Source: Lentisphaeria bacterium
GTDB lineage: Bacteria; Verrucomicrobiota; Lentisphaeria; Victivallales; Victivallaceae
Assembly (NCBI GenBank): GCA_017456285.1
Contig: JAFTJQ010000014.1
Coordinates: 1-41,868 of the forward strand
DNA length: 41,868 nt
Direction: 5' to 3'
The notes below the pieces were generated by a model that had not been told where the DNA came from, did not search any database, and worked only from the letters and a program-made list of their open reading frames with translations. The position numbers and the translations under genes were made by a program. Shown in pieces: positions 764 to 27,406 of the stretch (position 1 is the first letter of the stretch; every line of letters begins with the position of its first letter).

Positions 764-778
764 TTTCAATCCCCCCTC

Positions 779-1660: not shown

Positions 1661-1663
1661 AAA

Positions 1664-3382: not shown

Positions 3383-3394
3383 TTTATTTCAAGT

Positions 3395-4189
3395 TCAATA
3401 TCTCTTTTGATTTTGTTCACGGATGCGGTTATAATTCGGCAATTGCTTCTCAAGTTTGCGGAAGTCCACGCTCGGAGTTTCACTGATAATCTCGGTTTCG
3501 CCGTAGTTACGCAAACTCAAGGACAATCTTCCCTTTTGGCTGGCAAAAACCACCATTTCAACCTCATGCGGCAACAGCATAAGTGTCACAGTACCGTAAC
3601 TATTTCTAACTCCGCCCTCGGGGTCGGCTTGATACCCTGAATAACGGCTTCCGACTGCCAGAACTTTTACATTCTGCAAAATAGTCATAGTGACAGTATC
3701 AAGCGCACTATCGCCTTTTAAATCAGGGAATCTGAATGTACCGATGACATCGACATTGTCCTGCGGCTGAATTAAATTATTAACTGATGATGTAGTATCG
3801 ACCGGAATTGAAACGGCACGATAGCCCTTTCTTACCACCGAAGTAAAGCCGCCGTTGCGTTGGCTTATAAGCTGCAAATCATTATCCTGCAAGGTTTTAC
3901 CTGCAACGATTGAATTCTCCAATTTTCTGCCGATAACATTATTTACCGAACTCCACGGAATCTCGCGACTGCTCTCCATATCACGACGGGTGCGTTTTAT
4001 GGCGATTTTTCGCACGTCTTCCTTTAATAACTCCTCACCTGCGGACTTATTTTTGGTCATCTGAATCAGGTAAAAAGTCTCTGTTTCACTATAAATTTTT
4101 TTCCTCTCGGCTTTCAAATAGGAGTAACTCATTACAAAAGCGACAAAGCCGAAAAGCACTGCCAGAAGCAACAACATTTTTTGTTTCAT
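3395..4189 (-). CDS. cpaB: Flp pilus assembly protein CpaB/RcpC
   Basis: Periplasmic/inner-membrane assembly factor of Tad pili. The 264-residue protein has an N-terminal membrane helix at about 4-23 (LLLLAVLFGFVAFVM), then an SAF-like region (about 45-110, with KSAGEELLKEDV and VIGRKLENSIVAGKTLQ) and the RcpC domain (VSIPVDTTSSVNNLIQPQDNVDVIGTF) characteristic of CpaB, followed by a conserved TVTLMLLPHEVEMVVFA stretch. It is the first gene of the operon. Its ATG follows a GGATTG ribosome site and a clear promoter upstream. No pilin or CpaC secretin gene is visible next to it, so other parts of the system must be encoded elsewhere. Confidence 0.9.
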   Translation of the reverse strand: MKQKMLLLLAVLFGFVAFVMSYSYLKAERKKIYSETETFYLIQMTKNKSAGEELLKEDVRKIAIKRTRRDMESSREIPWSSVNNVIGRKLENSIVAGKTLQDNDLQLISQRNGGFTSVVRKGYRAVSIPVDTTSSVNNLIQPQDNVDVIGTFRFPDLKGDSALDTVTMTILQNVKVLAVGSRYSGYQADPEGGVRNSYGTVTLMLLPHEVEMVVFASQKGRLSLSLRNYGETEIISETPSVDFRKLEKQLPNYNRIREQNQKRY

Positions 4190-9279: not shown

Positions 9280-9391
9280 AACATTCCGCCTTTCAAGAAA
9301 ATATTATTATACTACATATTAATACCATAAAAAAGCCAACTTTCAAGCCCGAAGTATAAAAAAAGTCAAAAAAAAGCTAAAAATCGCTAAA

Positions 9392-9540
9392 AATATTCAA
9401 TAATTTTGAAAAAAATCACTGAAAATATACTTTTTGTAATAAATTATATCTTTTTTGAGACCCGAAAAGTATTAAACCATACACGCTTTTTGACAAAACG
9501 CTAATTAAACCATACTTTTGCAAAAAAATTTTAAAAAAAA
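9392..9540. repeat. 149-bp direct repeat, copy A, with tandem operator-like boxes
   Basis: Nearly identical to 17127-17275: I count two mismatches and no gaps. It lies upstream of the promoter of cassette A. Inside are two exact direct copies of ATTAAACCATAC (9471-9482 and 9504-9515) spaced 33 bp, about three helical turns, a layout usual for binding by a dimeric or AraC-type regulator. The copy ends in an A-rich stretch. No reading frame is present. It is probably a shared control region of the two pilin/enzyme cassettes; the regulator is not in the window. Confidence 0.85.
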
Positions 9541-9732
9541 TCGCATTTTTTTTTAATGTAGTCGGAGAATTTTTTTCAATCTGCTATTTTTAGTCTTTTA
9601 TCCATAAAACGTTATTTTTATTGTACAAAACAATGTCTATCTTGTTTTTAATTAATTTCTGGGAATATATACTCAAAGAAAAATTCTCTCTTTCCTTATC
9701 GTTTGACGGGGATATTGCCGCTCAAAAAACTA
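9541..9732. other. AT-rich gene-free region before promoter A
   Basis: No supported gene on either strand. The one notable element is the imperfect dyad ATTGTACAAAACAAT (9620-9634), which could be an operator or chance in AT-rich DNA. Confidence 0.4.
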
Positions 9733-9760
9733 TTGACATTTCAAAATATTGTGCTATAAT
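9733..9760 (+). promoter_or_regulatory. Sigma70-type promoter of cassette A
   Basis: TTGACA (9733-9738) and TATAAT (9755-9760) with a 16-bp spacer: perfect hexamers. The core aligns with the promoter of cassette B (TTTCAAAAT...GCTATAATAT in both). It lies outside the proposed invertible segment and points into it. Confidence 0.8.
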
Positions 9761-9779
9761 ATATAGTGCGAATGAAAAA

Positions 9780-9881
9780 ATGCAGAAACTAAGCCGCTGA
9801 GAAGTATGGATACGCGAGTACCTTTGGGACGTTGCGTTTTGTTACACTCTGCATGACGAGTGATAGTCCGACAAGTTCGGA
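9780..9881 (+). promoter_or_regulatory. Structured leader region of cassette A
   Basis: The RNA from the promoter would form a domain closed by ATGCAG (9780-9785) and CTGCAT (9849-9854), with an inner ACGC/GCGT helix, followed by a TCCGA/TCGGA hairpin (9867-9881). It is absent from cassette B. I compared it by eye with the TPP and c-di-GMP riboswitch consensus sequences and did not find a match. It may be a leader RNA of unknown function. Confidence 0.35.
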
Positions 9882-9946
9882 TAAACAAACTTACTTGAAG
9901 TAACCACCAACAACTCAATGAGGGTAAAATACATTGATTTTTTCAT
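9842..9946 (-). other. Inverted 5' end of prepilin gene A
   Basis: The minus strand reads a ribosome site (GAAAGGAAAGAG), ATG at 9946-9944 and MKKSMYFTLIELLVV, a textbook class III prepilin start, then TSSK and a stop at 9842 after only 34 codons. The part through 9902 is exactly what the prepilin body on the plus strand (10112-10780) lacks. Read after inversion of about 9902-10123, it joins in frame to [10 protein letters not shown] to give an intact 233-residue prepilin whose ATG would fall at about 10079. The last residues (TSSK...) are non-pilin sequence. As a free peptide it is unlikely to be functional. See the matching arrangement at 17336-17401. Confidence 0.85.
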
Positions 9947-10123
9947 TTTCTCTTTCCTTTCATGTTAGAGATTTTTGTTAAATATTAATGGGAATACCGT
10001 CCTCATTAATAGTGCTTTTGAGGTTAATTTTCTTATCCCTCAACCTTATTTATTTAATAACGCCCCATGCGTTACTAAATTCAACAATTCCATTTTTTTG
10101 CAATTATTGAAGTGATAGTTGTC
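9902..10123. repeat. Proposed invertible segment A, flanked by FTLIELLV-coding half-sites
   Basis: The left half-site (9902-9928, minus-strand coding) and the right half-site (10097-10123, plus-strand coding) are imperfect inverted repeats, identical at 17 of 27 positions when aligned by codon. Between them lies the leader and RBS of the inverted pilin start. Three hairpins are visible within: 9983-10011, 10018-10043 (TTGAGG/CCTCAA) and 10058-10074 (TAACGC/GCGTTA). The present orientation separates the start from the body. Inversion itself is inferred, not observed. Confidence 0.6.
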
Positions 10124-10780
10124 ATTGCAATCATTGCGATTCTTGCAGGAATGTTGCTTCCGGCACTCAACAAAGCCCGTGAAAAAGCTCGTGCAATCAC
10201 ATGTACAAACAATCTAAAAACCATTGGTACTGCGGTATTTATGTACTGTGATGATTGTAATGGACAACTTCCAAACACAGATATTGATTGGAAACCCGGA
10301 TATTATGGGAAATTGGCCAGTTACTTGGGAATCAATGTATCATGGGACGGTATTGCCAAAGATATGAAAAAAACAGGTCCTCAGTTCTGTCCGTCTGCAC
10401 CTCCGCAAGGAGACGCAGCAACAAAAACAGAAACCACAGGATATACTTCTAATTATCTGCCTACCGGAGCAACAAATGCTAATGCAGATGCCAAAGGGAA
10501 AGTATGGGCAGATGCTCAAAATCGTTGTAGTTCAGTTCGTTTAGCCAGTATTGTTCCTGGTGCTGCTCTTATGAGTGAAGAAAGTTTTATCAATGCAAAT
10601 CCCAATAGACCAGATACTTTGATATGTCATCCTCATAAAAGCAATGAAGATAATTATAGTGGAGGTAATATTCACTGGATTCATAACAAAGCCAGTAATT
10701 TTTTATTTGTTGACGGTCATGTTGAAGCAATTAAATATACCGGCAGTGTGATTTTCAATAACGACTGGACTCTCAAATAA
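10112..10780 (+). CDS. Prepilin-like protein A body, lacking its normal start
   Basis: Type IV/type II pseudopilin-like protein: hydrophobic [20 protein letters not shown] helix, [10 protein letters not shown], then a variable globular part with the C-terminal H-x-DGHVE ending seen in PVC prepilin-like proteins (NFLFVDGHVEAI). The frame is open from 10079 (after a TAA) but has no ATG. It reads FFAIIEVIVV, a degenerate version of FTLIELLVV, and lacks the basic leader peptide. GTG at 10112 is only the first usable codon and has no ribosome site. The true start appears to be the inverted fragment at 9842-9946. In this orientation it should give no processed pilin. The body itself is undamaged, with no frameshift or stop, which argues that it is still used. 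Confidence 0.8.
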   Translation: MIVVIAIIAILAGMLLPALNKAREKARAITCTNNLKTIGTAVFMYCDDCNGQLPNTDIDWKPGYYGKLASYLGINVSWDGIAKDMKKTGPQFCPSAPPQGDAATKTETTGYTSNYLPTGATNANADAKGKVWADAQNRCSSVRLASIVPGAALMSEESFINANPNRPDTLICHPHKSNEDNYSGGNIHWIHNKASNFLFVDGHVEAIKYTGSVIFNNDWTLK

Positions 10781-10791
10781 TTAGTAATTTC

Positions 10792-10835
10792 AAAATACAA
10801 AAAGCAAGTTTTTTATGCTTGCTTTTTGTATTTTT
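10792..10835 (+). terminator. Rho-independent terminator after prepilin A
   Basis: A long stem of AAATACAAAAAGCAAG with CTTGCTTTTTGTATTT, loop TTTTTTATG, ending in T residues. It sits between the prepilin and the large enzyme gene, so it would terminate or attenuate transcription and make enzyme levels lower than pilin levels. Confidence 0.8.
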
Positions 10836-10865
10836 AAGATTTAATGTATTCAGAAAGATCTATCT

Positions 10866-13800
10866 ATGAAACAATTTAAAATATATTTTGCATTAATATT
10901 ATTGTTCATTTGCTCGGTAATTCACAGTGCTGCTTTAGAGATAAAAACTGACAAAGTAATGTCAGTAAAAGTTAATGATTATACTGTTTTGCGTGCCAAT
11001 GCCATAACTTCGGGTGGAATTGATTTGCTTGCCGGAGAAGGAAACTTGATTTCTGACACAAAACAAAATAGCGTATGGACTAATGTCCGTGAATGGAAAA
11101 ATAACCATGGAAAGATTACACGGACAATGATTATTAAAGATAATTCTGTAAAATATATTTTTGATTATATTTCAAATACCAGAAAACCTATTGATTTTTT
11201 TATACACATGCCGGCAATGGCGATGGATATACCAAGAGATAAAGTTCCTGTCGGTGTGTTTAAAAATTATTTAACTCTCAATACTATCGGGGGAAAAATG
11301 GTGTTAAATACGACTGAATCAGACGGAAACTGGATTTTTGAAGATTTTCGTCATGCCGTCTGGTGCAATTCTTTCCGAATTCATTGTATTAGTACAGCTC
11401 AGAAAGGAAAAATTGTGATAACTGCTGCTTTTTCACCGGAAAAACCCGATATTTTTGTTACTTTTCCGTTGCTGAATGCCAATACCCGTCCCTATGCAGA
11501 TGATAAAAATGGAAGTGGTTGGACAGGACAAGGTCCTGCTAATGATATGAGTAATTTGTTAAAAGGTGATCTTTATTGTGCAGGAATACCTTTTTCATTG
11601 CCGGGAAGAGCAGTTTTGCTTAATGCCATACCTGTGAATCATTTTCCCGAAACGAGCGGAGTAATGAAACTTTCAAAACCGGAAAAACTTGAGATGTTCT
11701 ACTTTTTGCAAACTGCTGCTTGGAGTGCTCCTAATGGAACAGTTATTGCAAAATATATTATCAATTATGCAGACGGAAGTAATGCGGTTATTCCTGTTCG
11801 TTACCTGTATGATGTTGCGGACTGGTGGCAGAATTTAGATGTGGTAAATGCTAAAGTTGCTTGGCAGGGGACTAATCGTAGTGGACAGCCCATTTGTATT
11901 TATATGAGTCGTGCAGTTAATCCAAATCCGGACAAGGCAGTGATTTCAGTTGAGTTGGTATCAACCAAGAGCCCATGTATTTTGGCAATGCTCGGAGTTA
12001 CCGCTCTTAAAAAAGATGCAGCTTCTGCTAAGGTAAAGCAATATTTAGATGAAAGTTTTAAATTTAATAAAAATCAAACTCAAAATACTCAAAATTATGT
12101 AGAATGTCCTTTAGCTTGGAATGGTACAATTGAAGAGGGTTCTGCATTGGATTTCAGTTCTTTAAACCACAAACCCGCCGGAAAGTACGGTTATTTAAAA
12201 CGAGTTGGAGACCATTTCGAATTTGAAAAACGCCCCGGAGAAAAAGTAAGATTTTGGGGAACAAACTTTGCAATCGAAGGCCCTTTCCCTGATAAGGATT
12301 TAGCTCCGGGAATTGCCAAAACTATGGCTGCGCAAGGCGTAAATATGGTAAGATTTCATCTTTATGCGGCAAGAGAATGTTTGCTCCAAGCACCTAATGG
12401 AAAAATGAATCCCGAAATGCTTGATAAGATGTTTTTCCTTTTTGCAGAACTCAAAAAGAATGGCATTTATGTTTATATGGATATAAATGACGGTATTTGT
12501 TATGACTGGATGTTGCAAAGAGAAAAAGTATTAGGCACTCAGGAACGCTTAAAAGAATACAGTATGTTTGCTGATGATTTAATTGAGGCAACCAAACTTT
12601 TTGCTCGCACACTTTTTACAACTAAAAATCCATATACCGGAATGTCTTTCGCGGAAGATCCTGCCGTTGCGGCTTATGAAATTATTAATGAATACAGTTT
12701 CCTCAAAGAATCTTCTTTAAGTTGGGATGAGCGATTCAGCGATAAAGTTAGATTCTTACAACCTCAATTTAAAGAAAAATACAAAAAAAACTTAACAGAC
12801 CTTTGGAATAATTGGCTTAAAGACAACAATCTTTCTGCAAGACCATTACCAAAAACATTTAATGTCGATCCCATAAGCCGCAAGTTCGCAATTGAAATGG
12901 ATAGGCGTTATAACAGAATTTTCATTGAAGAATTACGCAATATGGGAGTTAAAGTTCCGATTTGCGGCATGAATTGGATGATCACCAATTCCAATTTGGC
13001 AGTTGCGGAACAAGATACTGACTTCATCGGCAACCACGACTATTGGACACTTCCAATTTTTGGGAATCCGTTAAGATACAGTAACAATATTTCATTAAGC
13101 ACATCTGCTTGGAAAAGCCCTTTAGTGTCTAATGGCTGGCTCGGCACTGCATCATTGAAAAATTTACCGGTAATTCATGGTGAATGGAATTTTTGCTATC
13201 CTAATGCAAATCGTTGCGAAGCCATGCCGACCACTGCGGCAATTGCGGCTTATCAAGATTGGGACGGCATGATTTTTTATGGAGCAACAGGGTCTTGTGA
13301 TGACGGCAAATGGAATCGTTTCAGAGAAAATCCAGCTATTATGGTGCATTCGCAACAAACAGATCCGTCGACTTGGGGAGCAGGTTATTTCGGAGTATCG
13401 ATGTTCCGTCGTGGTGATGTAGCAACAGCTAAAAAAGAGATTTCGCTCGTAATGCCTAACTCTGCCAGATATGAAAAAGATATGCCTTTATTATCCGCAC
13501 CGTATTTATTAGAATTGGGAAAAGTTTCTCTTGAATTTAATGGTAATGGAAATAAACTTTTTGAACTTATTTCCTGCAAAAATCTACCTGATCAGCAATT
13601 TGAAAGCGTTATTGCTTATTTAAAAGCACAAAATACTAATCAAAAACAAGTTGTATCTGATACCAAAGAATTAATAAGATTGCCGGAACATCCATTATTT
13701 ATTGTTAATACTCCGCTCACTCAATGTGTAACAGGGAGACTTTGCAACCTTACTCAAGCAAAATTTCAGATGTCAAATTTTCATGTAATTTCTCCAATGG

Positions 13801-16181
13801 ATTGGGCAACTTTCGGGGCGATTTCTCTTGACGGAAAAAATCTCGAAAAATCCGAAAGAATTTTGTTGATCGCAGTTGGAAATTCAGCTAATACTGATGA
13901 AAAACTTGAAAATAGTCAAGTCATTTCAATGGGAAAAGCTCCCGTAAAAACAGAACCTTTTCTTGCGGATGTAACTTATTTGACTGATAGTTCCGACATC
14001 AGTGTGTATGCTCTTGACCCATTAACAGGTAAAAGAGAATATAAATTAGATATTGTTGCAGTCAAAAATGGTATAACTTTCAATTTGGACGGTACCAATG
14101 CAACTATTTATTATGAGTTGGTGAGAGAAAAACAGTCTACCGGTGTCAATGTGAGTTTGGAGGAGAGCTCCTTAAATGAACTTTTCTCCTCTTTTGACAC
14201 AACTGCAAATCCGTTATTGCAACAAAGTGTTGAATTATGGAATAATGGAAAAAAAGATGAGGCAATTAAAGTTGCCGCAGATTATTTCAGAAATAGGAAC
14301 AAAACTGTTGATATTGAGGAACATGAATTTTATGCAAAAGTCGGAAATGCTGATGATATTGTAGATGGTAAAGTAATAGTTGTTGATAGACCATATCATT
14401 TTAAAGATGGAAAAATCGACTTTCATTTTAATCCCACTGTGGAAAACAAACCATTTAATCCCGAATGGACTTGGCAATTTAATCGTCATCATATTTGGGA
14501 TATTTTAGCAGACAAATATTTAGAAACCTTTAATAGTCGTTATGCGAAGTGTTTTACCAGTCAATTCCTTGATTGGTTTAATCAATGTCCACCTCCAAAG
14601 CGGTTAAAAGTCGACACTAATACTGTCGGCTCTGCATGGCGTACTATTGATACCGGAATCAGACTTGGTGCGACTTGGCCCAAAGCATGGAATACCTTTA
14701 TAAAATCACCTGAATTTACCGATCGCACAATGATGCTTTTCCTTGCGTCTGCATTGCGACAGGCAAAACACTTATACGCAAACAAAACCGGCGGCAATTG
14801 GGTTACTTATGAGATGAAAGGCCTTTACTGTTTTTCTGTGTTATTCCCTGAGTTTAAAGAAAGCAAAACATTTAGAAGCGATGCAATTAATGCAGTTTAC
14901 AATTTGGTAAATGCGCGTGTCCTTCCTGACGGAGCTCATGATGAATTAACTACCAGTTATCATTGTGGTGTAATATATAATTTATTAAAATTAATTCAAA
15001 TAGGAGAACAAGTGGGGTTGCAGGATGAATTCCCTCAAAAATATTTAGATTTAGCGGAAAAAGGACTGGAATATGCGTTGAGCATGATGACTCCCGATGG
15101 ATATATTCCGTTAGTTAATGATTCGGGAAAAGATAATGTAGAAAAAATGGTTGCAGAGTTTGCCTATTTATTCCCGAATAATAAAAATTTTGCCTTTATT
15201 GCTGAAAATAGGCCTCAGGATAAAAGACCGGAATATACTTCTATTTTTCATCCTTATGCCGGTTATGCAGTTATGCGTTCAAGCTGGGGAAAAGATGCAA
15301 ATTATCTTTGTTTTGATGTCGGCCCATTGGGGATGAGCCATTATCACCATGATAAATTGAACATTTCAATTAATGCAGGTGACGAAGAGCTCCTTTTTGA
15401 CGGCAATGCTTCTTATGAAAATTCTGCTTATCGTAATTATTCTGTTGAAGCGAAAGGACATAATCTTCCGATCGTTGACGGAAAAGGGCAATTCCGCTCT
15501 CCGGAAGAGCCGCTTAACCGGAAAACTTTAGAGAAAATAAAGAAAATTATGCCTAATGACTGGCATTGGTTTACTCTGGCAGAGAACCGCAGAGTTTTTG
15601 AACCGATTGACGGCTCCTTTATCAGTAATGACACAATTGACTTTGCACAAGGATATTTTTCTGATAACGGAAAGCATTTCCCGGCAAAACATCACCGACA
15701 GGTTCTTTTTGTTAAGCCTGATTGTTTTTTGGTTGTTGACCGTTTAACTCCATACGACAACCAAGAACATTTATTCCAACTTCGTTGGCATGTAGATACG
15801 ATAAATGAAGAGATTGATTCATCAAAAATATGGCAGTCAAATCGAGGGAAAACTTATGATTTGGTTATAGCTCCTCTTTTCGCTTCCGAAACAGAAGTAA
15901 GAAGTATTCACAATCAACATAATCCTGAAATTTTAGGATATAGGGTTTGTTATCCCGCTCCCGGACATCCTGCAACAACAGTTTTGCATGAACGAAAAGG
16001 CAAAGGTGAGCAAACATTTTTTACTTTGCTTATGCCATTTAAAAGTGCGGAAAAAAATCCTGTTAAAAAGATTCAGAGGATAGGGAAAAACGCTGTCGAA
16101 ATTGTTTTTGATAATGGTAAAATATTAAATTTGCAATTACAGGAACAAGTCAACTTGCCACCGATTATTAGTGGAAATTAA
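10866..16181 (+). CDS. Secreted clan GH-A glycosidase fused to heparinase II/III-like lyase
   Basis: A very large exported enzyme (1771 residues) with a signal peptide (IYFALILLFICSVIHSAA). Residues about 25-440 are beta-rich. From about 460 a TIM-barrel glycosidase is visible: VRFWGTNFAIEG, MAAQGVNMVRFHLY, the acid/base motif IINE (E609) and a probable nucleophile in VIHGEWNF (E773), as in clan GH-A (GH5-like). From about 1170 on, FNRHHIW, an alpha-helical toroid with NWVTYEMKGLYCF, and GYAVMRSSWG...SHYHHDKLN (about 1461-1498) identify a heparinase II/III-type polysaccharide lyase. The two activities suggest uronic-acid-containing host or algal glycans (inference). The 19-bp gap to the nucleoside hydrolase suggests co-transcription. 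Exact CAZy families cannot be given from sight. Confidence 0.8.
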   Translation: MKQFKIYFALILLFICSVIHSAALEIKTDKVMSVKVNDYTVLRANAITSGGIDLLAGEGNLISDTKQNSVWTNVREWKNNHGKITRTMIIKDNSVKYIFDYISNTRKPIDFFIHMPAMAMDIPRDKVPVGVFKNYLTLNTIGGKMVLNTTESDGNWIFEDFRHAVWCNSFRIHCISTAQKGKIVITAAFSPEKPDIFVTFPLLNANTRPYADDKNGSGWTGQGPANDMSNLLKGDLYCAGIPFSLPGRAVLLNAIPVNHFPETSGVMKLSKPEKLEMFYFLQTAAWSAPNGTVIAKYIINYADGSNAVIPVRYLYDVADWWQNLDVVNAKVAWQGTNRSGQPICIYMSRAVNPNPDKAVISVELVSTKSPCILAMLGVTALKKDAASAKVKQYLDESFKFNKNQTQNTQNYVECPLAWNGTIEEGSALDFSSLNHKPAGKYGYLKRVGDHFEFEKRPGEKVRFWGTNFAIEGPFPDKDLAPGIAKTMAAQGVNMVRFHLYAARECLLQAPNGKMNPEMLDKMFFLFAELKKNGIYVYMDINDGICYDWMLQREKVLGTQERLKEYSMFADDLIEATKLFARTLFTTKNPYTGMSFAEDPAVAAYEIINEYSFLKESSLSWDERFSDKVRFLQPQFKEKYKKNLTDLWNNWLKDNNLSARPLPKTFNVDPISRKFAIEMDRRYNRIFIEELRNMGVKVPICGMNWMITNSNLAVAEQDTDFIGNHDYWTLPIFGNPLRYSNNISLSTSAWKSPLVSNGWLGTASLKNLPVIHGEWNFCYPNANRCEAMPTTAAIAAYQDWDGMIFYGATGSCDDGKWNRFRENPAIMVHSQQTDPSTWGAGYFGVSMFRRGDVATAKKEISLVMPNSARYEKDMPLLSAPYLLELGKVSLEFNGNGNKLFELISCKNLPDQQFESVIAYLKAQNTNQKQVVSDTKELIRLPEHPLFIVNTPLTQCVTGRLCNLTQAKFQMSNFHVISPMDWATFGAISLDGKNLEKSERILLIAVGNSANTDEKLENSQVISMGKAPVKTEPFLADVTYLTDSSDISVYALDPLTGKREYKLDIVAVKNGITFNLDGTNATIYYELVREKQSTGVNVSLEESSLNELFSSFDTTANPLLQQSVELWNNGKKDEAIKVAADYFRNRNKTVDIEEHEFYAKVGNADDIVDGKVIVVDRPYHFKDGKIDFHFNPTVENKPFNPEWTWQFNRHHIWDILADKYLETFNSRYAKCFTSQFLDWFNQCPPPKRLKVDTNTVGSAWRTIDTGIRLGATWPKAWNTFIKSPEFTDRTMMLFLASALRQAKHLYANKTGGNWVTYEMKGLYCFSVLFPEFKESKTFRSDAINAVYNLVNARVLPDGAHDELTTSYHCGVIYNLLKLIQIGEQVGLQDEFPQKYLDLAEKGLEYALSMMTPDGYIPLVNDSGKDNVEKMVAEFAYLFPNNKNFAFIAENRPQDKRPEYTSIFHPYAGYAVMRSSWGKDANYLCFDVGPLGMSHYHHDKLNISINAGDEELLFDGNASYENSAYRNYSVEAKGHNLPIVDGKGQFRSPEEPLNRKTLEKIKKIMPNDWHWFTLAENRRVFEPIDGSFISNDTIDFAQGYFSDNGKHFPAKHHRQVLFVKPDCFLVVDRLTPYDNQEHLFQLRWHVDTINEEIDSSKIWQSNRGKTYDLVIAPLFASETEVRSIHNQHNPEILGYRVCYPAPGHPATTVLHERKGKGEQTFFTLLMPFKSAEKNPVKKIQRIGKNAVEIVFDNGKILNLQLQEQVNLPPIISGN

Positions 16182-16199
16182 TAAAAATAGGAAATTAAA

Positions 16200-17144
16200 A
16201 TGAATATTCAAACAAAGAAAATTCCGGTAATTTTGGATACTGATCCTGGAACAGACATTGATGATTCTTATGCAATTGCTTATTTATTGAATTGTCCGGA
16301 ACTCGATATTAAATTAATTACTTGTGCTACCGGTGATACAACAATGAGAGGCGATATTGTCAAAAGAATTTTAATTGCTGCAAATCGAACAAATATTCCA
16401 ATTGCCGTTGGTAGAAATTTTAAAGAAAATAAAATTTTAAATCACTTAAAACAGTATTTAAAATATAATGAAACTGCAGTTGGTAAGTATCCTGATGCTG
16501 CAACAGAAATTGTAAAAACTATTAATAATTCCGATGAAATTATTACAATTATATCTATCGCGCCATTAACTAATATTGCAGATGCGTTAAAATTAGATTC
16601 GTCGATTGCCTCAAAGGCAAATTTTGTCGGCATGTGCGGTTCGGTTTATAAGGGCTATGAAGGAAAAGATGGTAGATGTGCTGAATGGAATATTTTTTGT
16701 GACAACGAAGCCTCAAAGCTGGTTTTTAATAAATATCCATGGCACTCAATGATGATTGCCCCTCTTGATACTTGTGGAGATTTAACTTTTGATAGAGAAT
16801 TTTTATTAGAACTTCAGAATTTAAATAATCCCATTTTAATAGAATGTTTAAATTCTCATTTGTGGTGGAACGCAAGTATTAAGTCAGGAGAAGATAATGG
16901 AGTGCCTTATCCGTCAGAAAAATTTCCTGAAAAAACATCTCCTTTTTATGATTTAATGGCAATTTATTTAACATATTCACAAGAATATTTAGAGTTAGAA
17001 GAGTTAGCGTTAATAGTTGAAAATGGTACTTTTGTTGATGCAGAAGAACCTGTTAATAAAGTAAAAGCCGCAGTTCGTTATCAAAATAGAACTGCTTTCG
17101 TAAATCATCTAAAAAATCGATTGTGCAATATTCAATATTTTTGA
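16200..17144 (+). CDS. Inosine-uridine preferring nucleoside hydrolase family protein
   Basis: Cytosolic hydrolase of the IUNH fold that cleaves the N-glycosidic bond of nucleosides. The 314-residue length is typical. The calcium-binding signature DTDPGTDIDDSYAIAY lies at residues 13-28, and later family features are ISIAPLTNIADAL, EWNIFCDNEA and a C-terminal NGTFVDAE. There is no signal peptide. It follows the large enzyme by 18 bp with a weak AGGAAA ribosome site. The last 18 bases and the stop lie inside the copy B repeat. The gene looks more AT-rich than its neighbours by eye. Its substrate in this cluster is unclear; some family members act on non-nucleoside ribosides. Confidence 0.88.
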   Translation: MNIQTKKIPVILDTDPGTDIDDSYAIAYLLNCPELDIKLITCATGDTTMRGDIVKRILIAANRTNIPIAVGRNFKENKILNHLKQYLKYNETAVGKYPDAATEIVKTINNSDEIITIISIAPLTNIADALKLDSSIASKANFVGMCGSVYKGYEGKDGRCAEWNIFCDNEASKLVFNKYPWHSMMIAPLDTCGDLTFDREFLLELQNLNNPILIECLNSHLWWNASIKSGEDNGVPYPSEKFPEKTSPFYDLMAIYLTYSQEYLELEELALIVENGTFVDAEEPVNKVKAAVRYQNRTAFVNHLKNRLCNIQYF

Positions 17145-17275
17145 AAAAAATCACTGAAAATATACTTTTTGTGATAAATTATATCTTTTTTGAGACCCGA
17201 AAAGTATTAAACCATACACGCTTTTTGACAAAACGCTAATTAAACCATACTTTTGCAAAAAAATTTTAAAAAAAA
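17127..17275. repeat. 149-bp direct repeat, copy B, with tandem operator-like boxes
   Basis: Matches 9392-9540 with two mismatches by my count. The ATTAAACCATAC boxes are at 17206-17217 and 17239-17250, again 33 bp apart. The left end overlaps the 3' end of the nucleoside hydrolase gene. It stands immediately before the promoter of cassette B, whereas in cassette A about 190 bp intervene. Confidence 0.85.
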
Positions 17276-17278
17276 CAG

Positions 17279-17307
17279 TTGCATTTTTCAAAATTGTTTG
17301 CTATAAT
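17279..17307 (+). promoter_or_regulatory. Sigma70-type promoter of cassette B
   Basis: TTGCAT (17279-17284) and TATAAT (17302-17307) with a 17-bp spacer. The surrounding bases match the promoter of cassette A. It points into the second proposed invertible segment. Confidence 0.7.
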
Positions 17308-17335
17308 ATAATTGACAGCGAAAAATTAACACCGA

Positions 17336-17401
17336 TTAGATTAATTCTCCTGAAGTGTTAACCAACAGCTCAATAAGGGTGAATTTTAATAATTTTTTCA
17401 T
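17336..17401 (-). other. Inverted 5' end of prepilin gene B
   Basis: The minus strand shows a ribosome site (GAAAGGAACGG), ATG at 17401-17399 and MKKLLKFTLIELLV, then NTSGELI and a stop (21 codons). Inverted and joined at the codon after V it continues into [11 protein letters not shown] of the plus-strand body to give a 233-residue prepilin, the same length as the rebuilt prepilin A. The sequence just past the break, TS(S/G)(K/E), is shared with fragment A, so the two loci broke at equivalent points or derive from one ancestor. Confidence 0.85.
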
Positions 17402-17504
17402 TTTTCCGTTCCTTTCTAAGGTTTGTGTTTGCTTGATATAAGCTCAAAATCGCCAATATCAAAAATTTAGTTAATAATTTTTTACCGTTATTGCAGTGAT
17501 AGTT
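17360..17504. repeat. Proposed invertible segment B, flanked by FTLIELLV-coding half-sites
   Basis: Left half-site 17360-17383 (coding on minus) and right half-site 17481-17504 (coding on plus) are inverted copies matching at 17 of 24 positions. The inner spacer of about 97 bp holds the RBS and leader of the inverted start and a TTGATAT/ATATCAA hairpin (17433-17462). After inversion the ATG would lie at about 17463, some 150 bp after the promoter. Confidence 0.6.
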
Positions 17505-18164
17505 GTTATTGCAATCATTGCGATTCTTGCAGGAATGTTGCTTCCCGCATTAAACAAAGCCAGAGAGAAAGCCCGTGCTATCGCTTGCATCAACAACTTG
17601 AAACAACTCGGTACTATGTTTATGATCTACGCCGACGACAACAATGCAACTCTTTTTGCCGCAGGCGAAAATCAGAATGCCAAAGGTTCTTCTGCCGCAT
17701 GGCGTCACCATATCGGCGTTTGCGGTTATCTGCCTGACGTTAATGACACTGCGGCAACCAAACGCATTGCCGATGCGACTTGTCCTGCCTCTTCAGCGCT
17801 TCCCGGCTTAAATTATACCTACGGTATGCCGACCCACTTTACCAGAGAATCTATCCCGACCGGCAAAACTTACGGATACGCCAAAGTTGAAGTGCTTGAA
17901 CAGGAGGAAATTCTTCTCGGCGACTCTTGCCGTGCAGAGGCTAATGCTGACGGTTCTTGGGGCGAATCACACATTATTGAAGTTAAAGATGCAAACTTAT
18001 CTGCTTACGGCACCATGGAGCAAACCGGAAGTAAAAAAGTTTTGAGTATGCGTCACAAAAAAGATTCATTCAATATTCTTCACATTGACGGCTCTGCGGC
18101 AAGCGAAGATTTGTCATGGTTTGAAGAAAAACGCTACTATCCGATCAGTGCTAAAGATTTATAA
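17496..18164 (+). CDS. Prepilin-like protein B body, lacking its normal start
   Basis: Pseudopilin-like: [31 protein letters not shown] followed by [17 protein letters not shown], a globular part, and a C-terminal H-x-DG-like ending ([11 protein letters not shown]). Upstream the frame runs FFTVIA from a TAA at 17475 with no start codon; GTG at 17496 is nominal. The residue matching the conserved Glu+5 of pilins is Ala here, so the right half-site does not encode a working pilin start by itself. The inverted fragment at 17336-17401 supplies both start and Glu. The body has no disabling mutation. It ends 15 bp before the phosphoesterase gene with no terminator between them. Confidence 0.8.
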
Positions 18165-18179
18165 TTTTTCCAGTTAACC

Positions 18180-19703
18180 ATGAAAAAAATTCATCTCTTA
18201 TTTACAATTCTTTGCTGCAGTATTTTATTTACTGCGGCAAAGGGGGAGGATTACTGTCAAATTAACTTCGCAGAAACTCCGACTTATTGGGTAAAAAATG
18301 CACCGGAAAACTGGAGCGAAGTTATTGCCGGAAATGCGGAAAAAGTTCAAATTGATGTTGTTAAAGGTTTGAATTTAGATCGCATAGTCGGCAAAAGCGG
18401 TAATTCCCGTGATACCGGAGTGCTTTATTTTGAAATTATCGCTGAAAAAACCGCAAATGCGTTATTAGGAATTGGTTGCGACTGGTATTTCGAAGCCGCA
18501 ATTAATGGACAAACTTGTTACTCCACCTACGACAAGGGTAATTTTTATGATAAAATGGGATTTTGGAATCACACATTCAAAGTTCCATTGAAAAAGGGTA
18601 AAAATCTGCTTGCCGTCAAAGTCAAGCGAGGCGTAAACAGTTGGTTTTTCTGTATTAATAACAGCAAAAGCGATTACCTGCTTGACTATAATCACCCGTT
18701 AACTCCGGTCGCTGATTTCCCTGAATATGCCAAAAGAAACGGCGGTTCGTATGAGATTATTTTATTGGGCGATGTTCATTATGACGGCGAGGAGTATCAC
18801 GTCGGAGTGGATAAGAAAAAATTAAATGATGTTCCCCGCAATCTTTGGGCTTGGAAAAACACCATGCCCCGTTTAATCAATGCGGCGGTTGCCCGAAAAA
18901 CTGCCGATACCAAAGCAATTATTCAAGTCGGCGACTTGGTGCAAGGCGATTGCAACAGCGGTTCTATGCACCGAAAAATGCTTAAAGATGCTTTAAATTA
19001 TTTTGAAAGTAAATTCGATTCAACTCTTTTTTTGAGCGTAATCGGCAACCATGACTGGCGGAGTATTGACGGACACAAGGCATACGATAAAGTGATGTTT
19101 CCATATTACAGCAAAAAATTAGGCAAAAAAATCAACAATCGCAACTTCTATTTTTTAATGGATCAAGATCTCTATATTTTTGCCGATTTTGCCCGTCCTG
19201 ACGTCAAAATTATCGAGGAGGCATTAGAAAAAAATCCCGATGCACGTTACAAATTTCTGGTAACTCACGGGAGTGTCCTGCCTACTGATAATGATAAATT
19301 TGATTGGTACATGTTCGGGCGTGATGATAAATTCAGAAATTACATGCGAAATCTTTTCTTAAAAAATGATTTAATTGTGCTTTCAGGGCACAGCCATACA
19401 GTGGAGGTTATTGATTGCGTTGCCGCCGAGGGGCGGATAAGCCAGTTGATTTGTTCAAGCATTTGGAACCCTGAATCGCTAATCAAAAGTAAATTACTTT
19501 TTAATGACGGCAACTTGTACGGCAGTCGCCAGAGTACGGAGAGGATGCAAAAACGATATGCTGAATTCAAGGGTACGATCAAAAATTATTGGAGAGTCGA
19601 AAGTGCCGGATACTTCGTACTCAAAATTTCCCCTGACGGCGTAACTGCCGATTACTATGCAGGTGATAACAACCAAATTATTTACTCATATAAATTAAGA
19701 TAA
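18180..19703 (+). CDS. Secreted calcineurin-like metallophosphoesterase
   Basis: Exported phosphoesterase with a signal peptide (LLFTILCCSILFTAAKG), an N-terminal beta-sandwich resembling a galactose-binding module (about 25-165: TGVLYFEIIAEKTANALLGIG, GKNLLAVKVKRG), and a calcineurin-like domain with all metal motifs: LLGDVHYDG (about 196), QVGDLVQGD (about 250), IGNHDW (about 286), VTHGS (about 360) and SGHSHTVEV (about 401). The substrate cannot be told; it could be a phosphodiester or sugar phosphate released outside the cell. It lies directly behind prepilin B and is probably driven by the same promoter. No good ribosome site precedes the ATG, which suggests coupling to pilin translation. 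Confidence 0.87.
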   Translation: MKKIHLLFTILCCSILFTAAKGEDYCQINFAETPTYWVKNAPENWSEVIAGNAEKVQIDVVKGLNLDRIVGKSGNSRDTGVLYFEIIAEKTANALLGIGCDWYFEAAINGQTCYSTYDKGNFYDKMGFWNHTFKVPLKKGKNLLAVKVKRGVNSWFFCINNSKSDYLLDYNHPLTPVADFPEYAKRNGGSYEIILLGDVHYDGEEYHVGVDKKKLNDVPRNLWAWKNTMPRLINAAVARKTADTKAIIQVGDLVQGDCNSGSMHRKMLKDALNYFESKFDSTLFLSVIGNHDWRSIDGHKAYDKVMFPYYSKKLGKKINNRNFYFLMDQDLYIFADFARPDVKIIEEALEKNPDARYKFLVTHGSVLPTDNDKFDWYMFGRDDKFRNYMRNLFLKNDLIVLSGHSHTVEVIDCVAAEGRISQLICSSIWNPESLIKSKLLFNDGNLYGSRQSTERMQKRYAEFKGTIKNYWRVESAGYFVLKISPDGVTADYYAGDNNQIIYSYKLR

Positions 19704-19727
19704 ACTAAAACCAACAAGGAGAAAAAC

Positions 19728-20378
19728 ATGAAAAAATTAATTCTTTTAACTTTGGCGCTTATCAGTGCAACTTTGTCCGCTGATCCCTTATGCGTAATTA
19801 AGGACGGTAAATTTACCCAAAAAGGTTATTGGCTGCGTGAGGTAAAAAATACCGTTGACTCTGCTGACGGAGTAGTTTTTAATGGTCAGGATGCGGCGGC
19901 TTGGATTAAACTAAATAAATTCAATGCAGAGATGAAAGAATTTTCAATTGTCGCAGATGTAATTGTAGATAAACTGCCGGAGAAGGGCAATATGTCAATT
20001 GCCTGCCGCAGAGGGTATCACAATATTTTAGGAATTGACAATTTGGGCAGAGTTAATTATTCAATCTATGCGGCAGACAAGACAACTCGTCTCTTGTTGT
20101 ACTCAAAAACAAAATGCAAGGTCGGCGAAAAAATTCAAATTGCCGCAGTTATCGAGAATATTGATGAGAGCGAATACGACGTAATTCTTTATGTCAACGG
20201 AATTGAAGAAAACCGCAAAACTTTGTATCGTCAGATTTATCCCTACAATCGTGATTACTTCTATGTCGGAGCAATCGGATTAAAAGCGGAAGAGGGGTTT
20301 CTTTTTAACGGCAAAATTTTGAATATGTATGTTGCAGAAGAAGCACTTGATGAAGAGACTATTACTGAATTAAAATAA
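19728..20378 (+). CDS. Secreted concanavalin A/LamG-like domain protein
   Basis: 216 residues with a signal peptide (ILLTLALISATLSA). The remainder is a beta-rich jelly roll: AWIKLNKFNAEMKEFSIVADV, RRGYHNILGIDNLGRVNYSIY, DVILYVNGIEENRKTLY and YVGAIGLKAEEGFLFNGKILNMYVAEEAL match the pattern of LamG/concanavalin A-like sandwich domains. No catalytic acids of a GH16 type are seen, so it is more likely a binding module than an enzyme. It has a good AGGAG ribosome site and lies between the phosphoesterase and the GH13-like gene in one transcription unit. Confidence 0.7.
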   Translation: MKKLILLTLALISATLSADPLCVIKDGKFTQKGYWLREVKNTVDSADGVVFNGQDAAAWIKLNKFNAEMKEFSIVADVIVDKLPEKGNMSIACRRGYHNILGIDNLGRVNYSIYAADKTTRLLLYSKTKCKVGEKIQIAAVIENIDESEYDVILYVNGIEENRKTLYRQIYPYNRDYFYVGAIGLKAEEGFLFNGKILNMYVAEEALDEETITELK

Positions 20379-20399
20379 AAAACAAAGAATTATTATCAA

Positions 20400-23300
20400 A
20401 TGAAATACCTTAAATTAGTTGTATTGTGGTTTTTTTGTCTCTTTTTGCCGCTGATAAGCGAGGGCAAAATCAGCAAAAACAATAAAGAAATTATTTTTGA
20501 AACCGATGGCTTCGGGATAGTTTTGGATGCTAAAAGCGGTGCATGGAAAAAAACTCTCTCCGATATGCAAGTTGTCATGTCCACCAATCGAACAAAAGTA
20601 CCCTTTGATTTGGCTCTCTCAAAAGATGGCAAAATGCTCTCTCAAGGGGGGACGAAATACAAATTATCGGAAGTTAAGGAATTAGATAAAAATACTTTGG
20701 AATTGACCATTGAAGCAAATCAATTTATTTGCAAGGTAATTTATCAACTTTTCCCTGATGAAAAAATGATCAAAACTTCTTGCCGACTTGGCAATACAAC
20801 TAATTTAGAAGCAACTATTTATCGCTTTCACTTGAATCTGCCGAGAGTGAAATTTAATGAAAAAAGTTCTTACTCACTTCCGGGAATGTTTCCTCAAATT
20901 AAGGAGAGAAAATTAAAGGATTTTATTGACGGCAGAGTTGTTCAAGCTTGGCGAGATCCCTGTGCAGTAATTATTGAAATTAATCCTGATCTTACCATTT
21001 TCAGTGCCATTGACCGCACCGAATTTTATGGTGATATAAGCCGCACTGCTATTACTGAAATGCCGAGCGGTATCGGGTTATCGCATACGGTCGAATCTTC
21101 AGGTTATCTTAAAAATGGCGATCCTTGGCAAATCGGAGATTTTTATTGCATGATTCAAAAAAACAATGGCGAAACCGCTTTGAAAAATATCCACAATTGG
21201 ATGGCAAAATTGAATATGCAAGTGCCGTCTGACCGCCATAAAGATTGTTTGAAGCCGATTATTTACTCTTTTCATCCGGGGCAGCCGGGACACCCGTTTC
21301 AGGATTGGGGAGGATTTGTTCCCAGCACCAGGCAGCTGCCGAGAATCAGCAATCTGAATATCAACACGGTTTGGATTCTGCCGATTGAATCGGAATGCCC
21401 CTACATCCCTGATGATTTTTACCGCATGGCAAATGGGATCGGAACGCCGAAAGAGTACAAGCAATTAGTAAATACAGCCCATAAACTCGGAATGAGTGTT
21501 TGGCAGGATGTTGTTCCGCACGGCGGCAGAAATCGTTGTCAGAGGGCAAAAGATCACCCCGACTGGCTGTTGCGTAATGAAGCACAAATTGTACCTGCAA
21601 ATCGAGCATTTGATTATAACAACCAAGATTGGCAGAAGTATTTGGGCGATGTCGTTAAGTTCTATACTCAAAACTATTCGCTTGACGGCTGGCGAATTGA
21701 TACCAGCGGTTTTTCAGCACAGCCTAATTGGAGCAAAAAAATTCCTTATCAACGTGGAAGCTGGGCGATGGGTCAAGGCGGACTTAATATGATGAAAATG
21801 ATTCGCAACAGTGCTTTAGCAATTAATTCAAACGCTATGACTTTAGCTGAATGCGACGGCAGTTTATACGGCACTCAAGCGGATATCGTCTATGATTTTC
21901 CATTGTGCCGACAAGTTTTCCGCTCAATGCAGACAAAATCTCCTGCGGATTTTGTCAAGTCTTTACAGAATTATTTTTATGAACAGCAATTTGCTGAATT
22001 AAAAGACCTCGTGCGTTTACGCTACGTCGAAAGCCACGATGAACCAAAAGCAGAGTTGCTTTACGGGCCGGAACCAATGCGGGCAGCCATTGCGGTTACT
22101 GCTTGGGTTTACGGTGTCCCGATGATTTACAAGGAAGTTGAGGATGGACATAGTGAAATTATCAGCAAAATTCTGAAAATCCGTTCAATTGTTCCTGAAT
22201 TATCGACAGGTAAAGCTGATTACCAAATTATTAAATCAAGCGATGGCGTTTTCACTTGTTTACGTTACGACAAAGAAAACTTTGCCATTCCGCTGGTCAA
22301 TTTTAACCCCGAAAAAGTAACTGCTCAAATCGAATTTCCGATTACTGTTTTCGGGCAAAAAAGCAATACGGAACTTTTTGATTTATGGAACAACAAAATA
22401 ATTAAATACTCTCTCGATAAACAAACTGCAAAGTTTGAAATTGAAATTCCTGCTTACTCATTTACCGTAGTAACAAATAGGAAATTTGAAGTTGACACAA
22501 ATAAAAATTTCGAAGTCGGCAATGCTCAATTGCCTTACAGTGCTTTCATTTTGGATAATAACGGATTGACTCCGATTAAACTTAATTCTGAATCTGACGT
22601 TTCACAGAAATTAGATAAAAATCAATCATTAGTTATTCGAATTGACGAAAATAGTGATGAGTTATTCTATCAAGTTTCTTCAATATACGGCACCGTCGGC
22701 GATAAATTCAGAACTCGACACCCATTCTATAATTCAATGTGCAACAATATGTACAGTTTACCGTCAGGTCATAATGTTTTGTGGAGTTCAGTTACCCAGC
22801 CATTCGGCTTTGCGACAGAGAATAGCAAAATAAGTTTTTACTCTGCCAAAGGTTCAGTAAGTTTCGCTTTTACCGATCAAAATCGTCCTGCCGGAGTATT
22901 TTTGCTTGACAGAATCGGCAAAGACCATGCGCCTTTTTTAGTAATTGCCAAGGAAATTCCTGATTCGCCGTTAAAAATTGCAGGTGAATCGGTTGAATTT
23001 AAAATTTCTGCGGATAAAAAATATTTAATTCCCGAAGCAGTTGAAACAACTGATAAATTATTAAAACGATTCCCCGGCGGCTGGATTTTTGATAATGGCA
23101 AACTCAAACTTCGAATCGGGTCGAATGGCAATTTGATTGAGGCGTGGCAAAAAAACGGCAATGCGTATAATTCAATTTTGAAAGATTGGAAATTGGATAT
23201 GCGAGGTGGATTCATTCGTGAAAATGAATATTTTACTTCAAGTTATGAACTTGAAACTTACTGCCTTTTTGATAAACAAGCAAACGGCAATCTGAAATTA

Positions 23301-24134
23301 CAATTTTTCGGTCGTCCGAGAGGACACCACTATTACCAGATTTTAGCCCCGAATAAATTCAACTATTTAATAACCTACTCTCTGGATAAAAATTCTGATA
23401 ATTTTGAACTGTCATGTGCGGTCAGAGCCAATACTCTAATGCCGAATAAAAATATGAGTTTGAGCTTCGGGGGAAGAGTTTTTGCTAAAGAAAAATGTTT
23501 TACTTTCGGAGCGGGAACTGTAAACTATGAAAATGATAATCTAATTTATAAATTCCCCGATTTAACTGACAAAATCGGAGAGTTTGAGGAGTTTAAGTTT
23601 GCTTTCAACAAAAATATTTTTTCAAAAACACACCCCGAACTTCCTAAACGCAATTCATTGGTTTTTAATGGGTTATTCGATGGTTCATTTGAGTTTGATT
23701 ACTTCGGCAACTTCGTTGATACAGTGCAAAGTTACTGCTACGCCACCCCATGGTTTATGCCATTTAATGCAAGAATTATCACGGATAAAGTTTTCTGCGG
23801 CAATCGGGCGGTAATGCTTGAAATGAATGGTCAGGACGAGATGATTCTCAAACAAAGCGGAGTCGCTGAAAATATGAAAAAAAACGAGAAGTGGCGTTTC
23901 TCCGCACAAGTTGCAACCAGTGATTTGCGAGCGTACCGAATGCACTTGAAATTGATAATGCCGAATATGCAAACTATTTCAATTTCAATCCCCGACGGAA
24001 CGGCTGATTATAAAAAATTTGAGGCGGAATTTATTGCACCGTCGGACAATTCAACTTTTGAAATTCGCATGGGCGGCAAGGGACCAAAGGGCAAAGTATA
24101 TTTCGATGATGTCAAATTGGAAAGAGTAGAATAA
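20400..24134 (+). CDS. Secreted GH13-like alpha-glycosidase, multidomain
   Basis: A 1244-residue exported enzyme with a signal peptide (LVVLWFFCLFLPLISEG). Residues 25-270 form an N-terminal beta domain; about 290-620 is an alpha-amylase-like barrel with LNINTVWILPIESE, HKLGMSVWQDVVPHGG, the nucleophile motif DGWRIDTSG (D434), acid/base AECDG (E484) and ESHDEP (H546-D547). This triad order is that of clan GH-H. A C-terminal amylase-like sheet follows, then about 550 residues of beta-rich modules ending in a carbohydrate-binding-like FDGSFEFDYFGNF...GKVYFDDVKLERVE domain. The barrel is divergent from standard amylases (SHDEP instead of NHD), so the substrate may be another alpha-glucoside. It ends 1 bp before the next start. 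Confidence 0.8.
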   Translation: MKYLKLVVLWFFCLFLPLISEGKISKNNKEIIFETDGFGIVLDAKSGAWKKTLSDMQVVMSTNRTKVPFDLALSKDGKMLSQGGTKYKLSEVKELDKNTLELTIEANQFICKVIYQLFPDEKMIKTSCRLGNTTNLEATIYRFHLNLPRVKFNEKSSYSLPGMFPQIKERKLKDFIDGRVVQAWRDPCAVIIEINPDLTIFSAIDRTEFYGDISRTAITEMPSGIGLSHTVESSGYLKNGDPWQIGDFYCMIQKNNGETALKNIHNWMAKLNMQVPSDRHKDCLKPIIYSFHPGQPGHPFQDWGGFVPSTRQLPRISNLNINTVWILPIESECPYIPDDFYRMANGIGTPKEYKQLVNTAHKLGMSVWQDVVPHGGRNRCQRAKDHPDWLLRNEAQIVPANRAFDYNNQDWQKYLGDVVKFYTQNYSLDGWRIDTSGFSAQPNWSKKIPYQRGSWAMGQGGLNMMKMIRNSALAINSNAMTLAECDGSLYGTQADIVYDFPLCRQVFRSMQTKSPADFVKSLQNYFYEQQFAELKDLVRLRYVESHDEPKAELLYGPEPMRAAIAVTAWVYGVPMIYKEVEDGHSEIISKILKIRSIVPELSTGKADYQIIKSSDGVFTCLRYDKENFAIPLVNFNPEKVTAQIEFPITVFGQKSNTELFDLWNNKIIKYSLDKQTAKFEIEIPAYSFTVVTNRKFEVDTNKNFEVGNAQLPYSAFILDNNGLTPIKLNSESDVSQKLDKNQSLVIRIDENSDELFYQVSSIYGTVGDKFRTRHPFYNSMCNNMYSLPSGHNVLWSSVTQPFGFATENSKISFYSAKGSVSFAFTDQNRPAGVFLLDRIGKDHAPFLVIAKEIPDSPLKIAGESVEFKISADKKYLIPEAVETTDKLLKRFPGGWIFDNGKLKLRIGSNGNLIEAWQKNGNAYNSILKDWKLDMRGGFIRENEYFTSSYELETYCLFDKQANGNLKLQFFGRPRGHHYYQILAPNKFNYLITYSLDKNSDNFELSCAVRANTLMPNKNMSLSFGGRVFAKEKCFTFGAGTVNYENDNLIYKFPDLTDKIGEFEEFKFAFNKNIFSKTHPELPKRNSLVFNGLFDGSFEFDYFGNFVDTVQSYCYATPWFMPFNARIITDKVFCGNRAVMLEMNGQDEMILKQSGVAENMKKNEKWRFSAQVATSDLRAYRMHLKLIMPNMQTISISIPDGTADYKKFEAEFIAPSDNSTFEIRMGGKGPKGKVYFDDVKLERVE

Positions 24135-27067: not shown

Positions 27068-27098
27068 ATTATAAAAAAATAAAAACTAAATTGTGGTC

Positions 27099-27198
27099 TT
27101 TTTTTTGCTTTGAAAAAATGTGAGAGGCGAAGTCATAAATTGGTCGAAGTGTACTAACCGTACACGAGTAACCAATTTTGACAAGCCTATCCTTTTTT
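27099..27198. repeat. Palindromic repeat element, copy 1
   Basis: About 100 bp, related to 27295-27406. Hairpin: AAATTGGT (27137-27144) with ACCAATTT (27171-27178), inner GTGTAC/GTACAC (27149-27154, 27160-27165). The outer arm TTGCTTTGAAAAAA is kept on the left but not on the right. It could also serve as a terminator-like structure for the preceding gene. Confidence 0.75.
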
Positions 27199-27294
27199 AA
27201 TAATCACTAAACCTTGTATGCCGATAAGAAATTTTTGAGCGGAAGCGAACACAGGAAAAAATTATTAAAAAGAAATTAAAAATAATTCGTAGTA

Positions 27295-27406
27295 TTTTTT
27301 TGCTTTGAAAAAAGTGAGAGGCGAAGTTACAAATTGACCGAAGTGTACTTGAGGTACACGAGATGTCAATTTTAACAAGCCTATCCTTTTTTCAAAGCAA
27401 AAAAAA
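27295..27406. repeat. Palindromic repeat element, copy 2
   Basis: Complete copy with outer arms TTTTTTTGCTTTGAAAAAAG and its complement ending at 27406, a GAGGC/GCCT segment, AAATTGAC (27331-27338) with GTCAATTT (27365-27372), and GTGTAC/GTACAC (27343-27348, 27354-27359). Compared with copy 1 the third helix has two compensated base-pair changes (GT/AC to AC/GT), so pairing is preserved. It abuts the 3' end of tRNA-Asn, where it may also act as its terminator. Confidence 0.8.

Follow-up and report, generated by a model that had tools for sequence, protein, structure and literature searches.

Short, probably invertible segments carrying prepilin starts in a Lentisphaeria genome, and a candidate large serine recombinase

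Inversion of the prepilin head is well supported for the genome studied here, which seems to possess 36 or more switches of this kind. We interpret them as phase variation of prepilins across the whole genome, brought about by one recombinase acting in trans and presumably reversible. The source genome (G000) is a 2.42 Mb draft of 92 contigs, which are written C25, C42, C71 and so on. "The window" stands for the whole stretch of 41,868 nucleotides in which two of these loci lie.

Two split prepilins and the repeat ahead of them

In both cassettes of the window a prepilin body without a start is found on the plus strand, and a complete start, comprising ribosome site, ATG and the codons for MKK..FTLIELLV, lies just upstream on the minus strand (Table 1). 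The left junction has the layout arm.AC.reverse-complement head and the right one arm.GT.body. Both bodies match PF07596, that of cassette 2 slightly below the curated cut-off. The type III signal FTLIE and the hydrophobic helix, which characterize an N_methyl/DUF1559 prepilin, stand in one frame only after the flip.

Table 1. Positions of the features of the two cassettes in the window.
Feature	Position	Strand	Remarks
149-bp repeat copy 1, operator/upstream promoter region	9392..9540	+	sequence comparison
Box pair ATTAAACCATAC at 9471 and 9504	9471..9515	+	exact match, spacing 33 bp
Promoter-like TTGACA-16-TATAAT, cassette 1	9733..9760	+	sigma-70-like, outside invertible segment, upstream of site
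Left recombination site, cassette 1	9893..9920	+	outside arm ACTTGAAGTAACC, core AC 9906-9907, then reverse-complement head half
Invertible segment 1, 214 bp, OFF here	9906..10119		in-silico flip gives a 233-aa prepilin
Inverted prepilin head MKKSMYFTLIELLV	9908..9946	-	Shine-Dalgarno-like AAAGGA before head
Right recombination site, cassette 1	10105..10132	+	inside arm TATTGAAGTGATA, core GT 10118-10119, then body half
Prepilin body, cassette 1 (DUF1559/SBP_bac_10), without start	10120..10780	+	domain match
Cassette 1 enzyme, heparinase II/III domains	10866..16181	+	domain matches
Cassette 1 nucleoside hydrolase family (IU_nuc_hydro)	16200..17144	+	domain match
149-bp repeat copy 2	17127..17275	+	first 18 bp overlap end of ORF 16200-17144
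Box pair ATTAAACCATAC at 17206 and 17239	17206..17250	+	exact match, spacing 33 bp
Promoter-like TTGCAT-17-TATAAT, cassette 2	17279..17307	+	sigma-70-like, upstream of recombination site
Left recombination site, cassette 2	17348..17375	+	core AC 17361-17362
Invertible segment 2, 143 bp, OFF here	17361..17503		in-silico flip gives a 233-aa prepilin
Inverted prepilin head MKKLLKFTLIELLV	17363..17401	-	start with ribosome site and ATG
Right recombination site, cassette 2	17489..17516	+	core GT 17502-17503
Prepilin body, cassette 2, without start	17504..18164	+	domain match
Cassette 2 enzymes: metallophosphoesterase, LamG-like, alpha-amylase-like	18180..24134	+	domain matches

Each cassette is headed by a near-identical repeat of 149 bp, for which the original prediction had offered three readings, namely a shared operator, a recent duplication, or a recombination or attachment site that moves cassettes. 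Its description of the repeat is accurate: the two copies are identical but for two positions (9403/17138 and 9438/17173), each contains two exact boxes, and an A-rich tract, a related sigma-70-like promoter and a split prepilin, whose start is on the opposite strand, follow in both cassettes. Copy 2 begins within the final codons of the preceding ORF. Further ATTAAACCATAC boxes could not be identified in the window at one mismatch (0.25 expected), and none of 100 shuffled windows reached four of them.

Genome-wide, the full 149-bp unit is present in two copies only, both in the window, followed by shorter matches of 72 bp (97%) and 83 bp (77%). The genome has just four sites with paired TAAACCATAC boxes, and a control with the reversed pattern gave none. 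Besides the two pairs of the window, one is located on C25 directly 5' of a promoter-like pair and a gene for a GH38 alpha-mannosidase, and one on C42 between diverging genes for a GntR/LacI-type regulator and a Zn-dehydrogenase. Because the box pairs are found at four places, each preceding a catabolic-type gene, the repeat is a duplicated module of operator and promoter that belongs to carbohydrate-type operons and is not tied to prepilins. The ideas of a shared operator and of a recent duplication are both borne out, and a regulator gene with the box in its own promoter, which had been named as a thing to look for, is found in the GntR/LacI-type gene adjoining the C42 pair. Judged from the sequence, its product is the best candidate for the partner of the boxes and most likely that partner. 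Neither the C25 nor the C42 pair heads a prepilin.

The same two pairs, together with the absence of the repeat from most invertible prepilins of the genome, led us to reject the 149-bp unit as a recombination site, and the actual recombination sites lie downstream of it. Nor are cassettes moved by recombination; the system flips the prepilin start instead. The copies sit before promoters of unrelated catabolic genes, and terminal inverted repeats, a transposase gene or a junction role, which would characterize an insertion-sequence end or an attachment site, were not found for the repeat. We also looked for known structured RNAs in the leader, and no Rfam match was obtained across 9300-17600.

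Elsewhere in the window a third prepilin (39630-40208) is intact, has no recombination site upstream, and carries ATA and not GTN as crossover codon. The genes on the minus strand at 2-4189 resemble by eye those of Tad/Flp-type pilus assembly (FHA-ATPase, two membrane platform proteins, CpaB-like). A 141-nt direct repeat is present at 27058-27392 in two copies of 73% identity, with starts 194 bp apart.

ON and OFF prepilins and their recombination sites

The prepilin query gave 75 rows in the source genome, of which 67 distinct bodies passed a strict body motif and the weaker or deviant rest were dropped. Eleven of the 67 are split and have an inverted head (OFF). Another 25 are intact with an AC-centred site upstream that scores 18-25 of 26 (ON), the threshold of 18 having been chosen after the distribution was seen. 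For 30 further intact bodies the upstream site scores at most 16, and the remaining one, on C59, is truncated where the contig ends, at the crossover. As a control served the region 150-850 bp downstream of 66 bodies. No score there exceeds 16 except in two cases, a 17 and a 20, and the 20 stems from the site of an adjacent OFF gene.

At all 11 split loci the in-silico flip of segments of 107-214 bp restores a prepilin of 230-254 aa led by a ribosome site. It could be argued that the repeat alone explains the finding, as a shared operator or a recent duplication, and that the split prepilins are merely broken genes; the operator-like module is indeed real, with its four paired-box sites and one of them at a regulator gene. 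However, random breakage would not leave flippable intact heads, and an intact inverted head with ribosome site is present at 11 of 11 loci. That explanation stands for the repeat itself, is contradicted as a complete account, and is as such very improbable.

When flipped, the OFF segments reach a best identity of 70-96% to the 25 ON segments (five at 95-96%), in contrast to 42-63% unflipped, whereby the 11 OFF and 25 ON forms are different paralogous loci of one assembly and never one locus in both orientations. In the five best OFF/ON pairs the 60 bp on the promoter side match at 78-90% in unchanged orientation, and for the C76/C20 pair a match of 93% is seen also over about 300 bp of the body. 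In a 92-contig draft with many near-identical heads, in which C59 moreover ends at the crossover, conserved heads might have been misjoined during assembly. Yet at eleven loci the two junctions fall on one and the same dinucleotide and carry specific arms that are absent from the coding site, and the genome of a relative (G023) shows the same form independently, which makes an assembly artefact very improbable.

The crossover in the gene is the GT of the valine codon in FTLIELL/V (the slash marks the crossover); the noncoding site, (A)TTGAAGTRAYR.AC.YRTYACTTCAAGT, is almost palindromic. When the six bases at the centre are not constrained, all of the 25 top-ranking upstream sites among the 55 intact genes are AC-centred; the 26th-ranked, tied at the lowest score, has an AA centre. 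Since AC upstream faces GT in the gene, the cores lie in opposite orientation, as inversion demands. A fixed central dinucleotide, inverted arms and a non-palindromic core that gives orientation, the traits of serine-recombinase sites, are all present. The outside arm is mostly NATTGARGTAACM and the inside arm mostly ACTTGAAGTGAYR, in ON and OFF loci alike, and beyond the GT the cores match only partially. Folded as RNA, the ON palindrome gives a modest hairpin (-7.1 kcal/mol, z -2.06), to which we assign no role.

The codons around the crossover are nearly invariant in ON genes (ATT 25/25, ATT 24/25, GCA 24/25) and occur in about half of the site-less genes. Synonymous-codon fixation at the crossover of site-bearing genes exceeds that of site-less genes and of their own downstream codons and was equalled in 0 of 300 label permutations, although many site-bearing genes are paralogues, so that neither the counts nor this test are fully independent.

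Promoters and arms were tabulated for 35 loci, a set which leaves out the 11th OFF locus (L046, site score 17). In 24 of the 35, a promoter-like pair scoring at least 11 of 12 precedes the noncoding site by 22-61 bp. On the outside arm, C is the base adjoining the core in 6 of 10 OFF loci versus 1 of 25 ON loci. As an exact exchange of 2 bp would not change this base, it does not explain the difference; either loci with C at this position preferentially remain OFF, or more than two bases are exchanged. The same difference could be taken to mean that the inversions are real but old and one-way, with the OFF genes as dead relics, and large serine recombinases, to which our candidate belongs, usually act one-way without a partner factor. 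Against this, the heads and bodies of all 11 OFF loci retain open frames and ribosome sites, and the OFF coding halves are conserved as well as the ON ones. We therefore consider relics unlikely and keep to switches that would still be in use.

Outside the prepilin loci, similar palindromes with other central bases and no prepilin beside them were noticed at L125 near 2140 (G000:C43:49642) and at L127 near 2105 and 2225 (G000:C32:8603, 8721), the C32 pair being 118 bp apart and upstream of a gene. The site pattern itself is found 27 times forward and 29 times reverse in the source genome and at most three times in each of the 77 other genomes of the family, where the matches listed are nearly all look-alikes of the coding site. 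GTDB contigs gave one match (Clostridium akagii), which has an intact prepilin reading frame close by, and viral contigs gave three, near which no prepilin heads were found; all four were rejected as true sites and taken as chance.

Candidate recombinase and prepilin loci of relatives

Three family searches of the source genome yielded XerC and XerD and two serine recombinases, on C50 and C71, as the sole site-specific recombinases. XerC and XerD were named from their sequences, and no DEDD-type invertase of the IS110/Piv kind (PF01548) was found in this genome. The C50 serine recombinase comprises 425 aa and adjoins genes which by eye are phage-like. The C71 protein is a large serine recombinase of 589 aa, encoded stand-alone between housekeeping-type genes, with the domains PF00239 (Resolvase N-terminal), PF07508 (Recombinase) and PF13408 (Zn-ribbon; exactly at the cut-off) and, by eye, an IYCRQS motif. 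Its gene adjoins no recombination site in the source genome.

A scan of the whole collection revealed no relatives of the C71 protein. Within the family, homologues at E 1e-10 or better are encoded by 14 of 78 genomes (the source genome included), with 26-35% identity outside the source genome; to the larger homologues the identity is at most 33%, and the 35% belongs to one short fragment. Fifteen homologue loci in 13 relatives were inspected, and in 12 of them a split body or orphan head lies within about 1.2 kb, that is a headless prepilin body in ten and an orphan head in two; the loci of G020, G067 and G062 have neither. A prepilin of any kind that close would be expected in under a tenth of loci, given 78-113 per roughly 3 Mb in four relatives. 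Because its homologues adjoin split prepilins, the C71 large serine recombinase is the best candidate enzyme, and it is probably the one that acts, in trans, on the prepilin sites.

XerC/XerD or the phage-type enzyme of C50 might perform the inversion instead, being the only other site-specific recombinases obtained. The two-fold symmetry around AC/GT, however, suits a serine recombinase; every family homologue for which a match is detectable scores higher to C71 than to C50; and homologues of C71 adjoin split prepilins. We regard another enzyme as distinctly unlikely and retain C71. A recombinase tree was not used, as it included a wrongly picked frame from G075 and its branches were mostly weak.

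The relatives show several arrangements. In G023 the head is inverted as in the window, with 152 bp between the cores, and a flip restores the gene. In G022 (contig C6; L218, 5320-7310) the recombinase gene is flanked by an intact head-body gene and by a related body that has no head and is encoded on the other strand, and a flip would exchange the bodies. One intact prepilin and three headless bodies surround the recombinase gene on contig C89 of G024 (L222), a possible pilin body array. GT is found at the junction core in 18 of 19 cases in relatives; this adds no independent support, as GT is dictated by the valine codon. The prepilin bodies of four relatives are intact in 31 of 31 cases, a count biased towards intact genes as these were the best matches to a full-length query. 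The number of prepilin-like genes is about 75-113 in the five genomes counted (75 in the source genome, 78-113 in the four relatives).

A conserved in-frame insertion of 231 bp (TSQLCRDFFKRFICTD...CFIRSA) was observed in prepilin heads at FTLIELL/V of relatives of the same order (L187, L191, L192, L196, L197, L199, L206, L210, L214 and others). It supplies a second FTLIELL, the body usually stays in frame, and the insertion resembles a small mobile element with the same target. Contig ends by orphan heads were considered as signs of mixed orientations and rejected, as in relatives they sit at this repeated insertion.

Known inversion systems and the proposed switch

Inversion-based phase variation as such is already known. 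In the type IV pilin inversion of Moraxella (Piv; tfpQ/tfpI) a crossover near the conserved pilin N-terminus decides which body is made, and Piv is a DEDD/IS110-type enzyme. The G022 locus, with head and recombinase between two bodies, resembles this layout. In contrast to Moraxella, however, a large serine recombinase is implicated here and no IS110-type enzyme was found in the source genome, and each locus of the window is an ON/OFF switch for a single body, of a kind that recurs across the genome. Hin/Gin-type invertases are serine recombinases that invert DNA at a 2-bp core; our candidate differs from them in being a serine recombinase of the large type, with Recombinase and Zn-ribbon domains, and the prepilin sites differ in that one of the pair is degenerate and lies in coding sequence. 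The intragenic invertons of Chanin et al. 2024 and the invertible promoters of Jiang et al. 2019 are reportedly short, reversible inversions within genes or immediately upstream of them. Unlike these, one dedicated site pair recurs here at dozens of paralogous genes, and a conserved signal-peptide sequence serves as site.

RecV, the recombinase of the cwpV switch of Clostridioides difficile, is a tyrosine recombinase. The cwpV report describes a promoter outside the inverted segment, repeats 195 bp apart, a recombinase gene elsewhere in the genome and a segment without ORF, with OFF proposed to arise via a terminator (PMC2784873). Compared with cwpV, the prepilin loci are alike in the promoter outside the segment, the comparable distance between the sites and the distant gene of the candidate recombinase, and unlike in that their segment carries the ribosome site, the ATG and the first codons and that one site is coding sequence. 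Within the open-access literature searched, we found neither invertible prepilin heads nor their inversion by a large serine recombinase described, and nothing of the kind for Lentisphaerae.

We consider it likely that two independent layers exist, the box operator module and the short invertible prepilin-head segment flipped by the C71 enzyme. In the first, a GntR/LacI-type regulator would bind the box pairs and co-control a few polysaccharide/sugar operons. In the second, a segment of about 105-216 bp between promoter and prepilin contains only the leader, the ribosome site, the ATG and the codons to FTLIELL. One of its sites is coding sequence at the valine GT, the other an inverted near-palindrome near the 5' end of the transcript, and recombination at the GT/AC dinucleotide would flip the head. 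In the ON form the head is fused in frame to the body, with the palindrome upstream; in the OFF form the head is antisense to the transcript, the two sites are hybrids and the body lacks a start. The promoters, some with box operator, would fire constantly or by a sugar signal. As the promoter stays put, the downstream enzyme genes should remain transcribed and the prepilin alone would switch. The C71 recombinase would act in trans on at least 36 loci. The DUF1559-type prepilins may be minor pilins or secretion pseudopilins, and a bet-hedging of the surface or secretion repertoire is the use that we propose.

With less assurance we lean towards a wider picture, in which one domesticated large serine recombinase, from a family that adjoins or is inserted in prepilins, flips at least 36 start-codon cassettes via FTLIELL/V. 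Each cell would thereby obtain a combinatorial pseudopilin repertoire over sugar-responsive promoters that stay on, and relatives would swap bodies or build arrays with the same enzyme family.

In a genome annotation, the OFF genes would appear as fragments without a head. If the proposed switch is true, large serine recombinases gain a role as multi-locus invertases, and a recombination site is embedded in a widely conserved protein motif, which would be a possible reason for the invariant DNA of that motif. If a third or more of the prepilins are phase-variable in one species, these proteins are probably outward-facing or form a variable secretion or adhesion repertoire.
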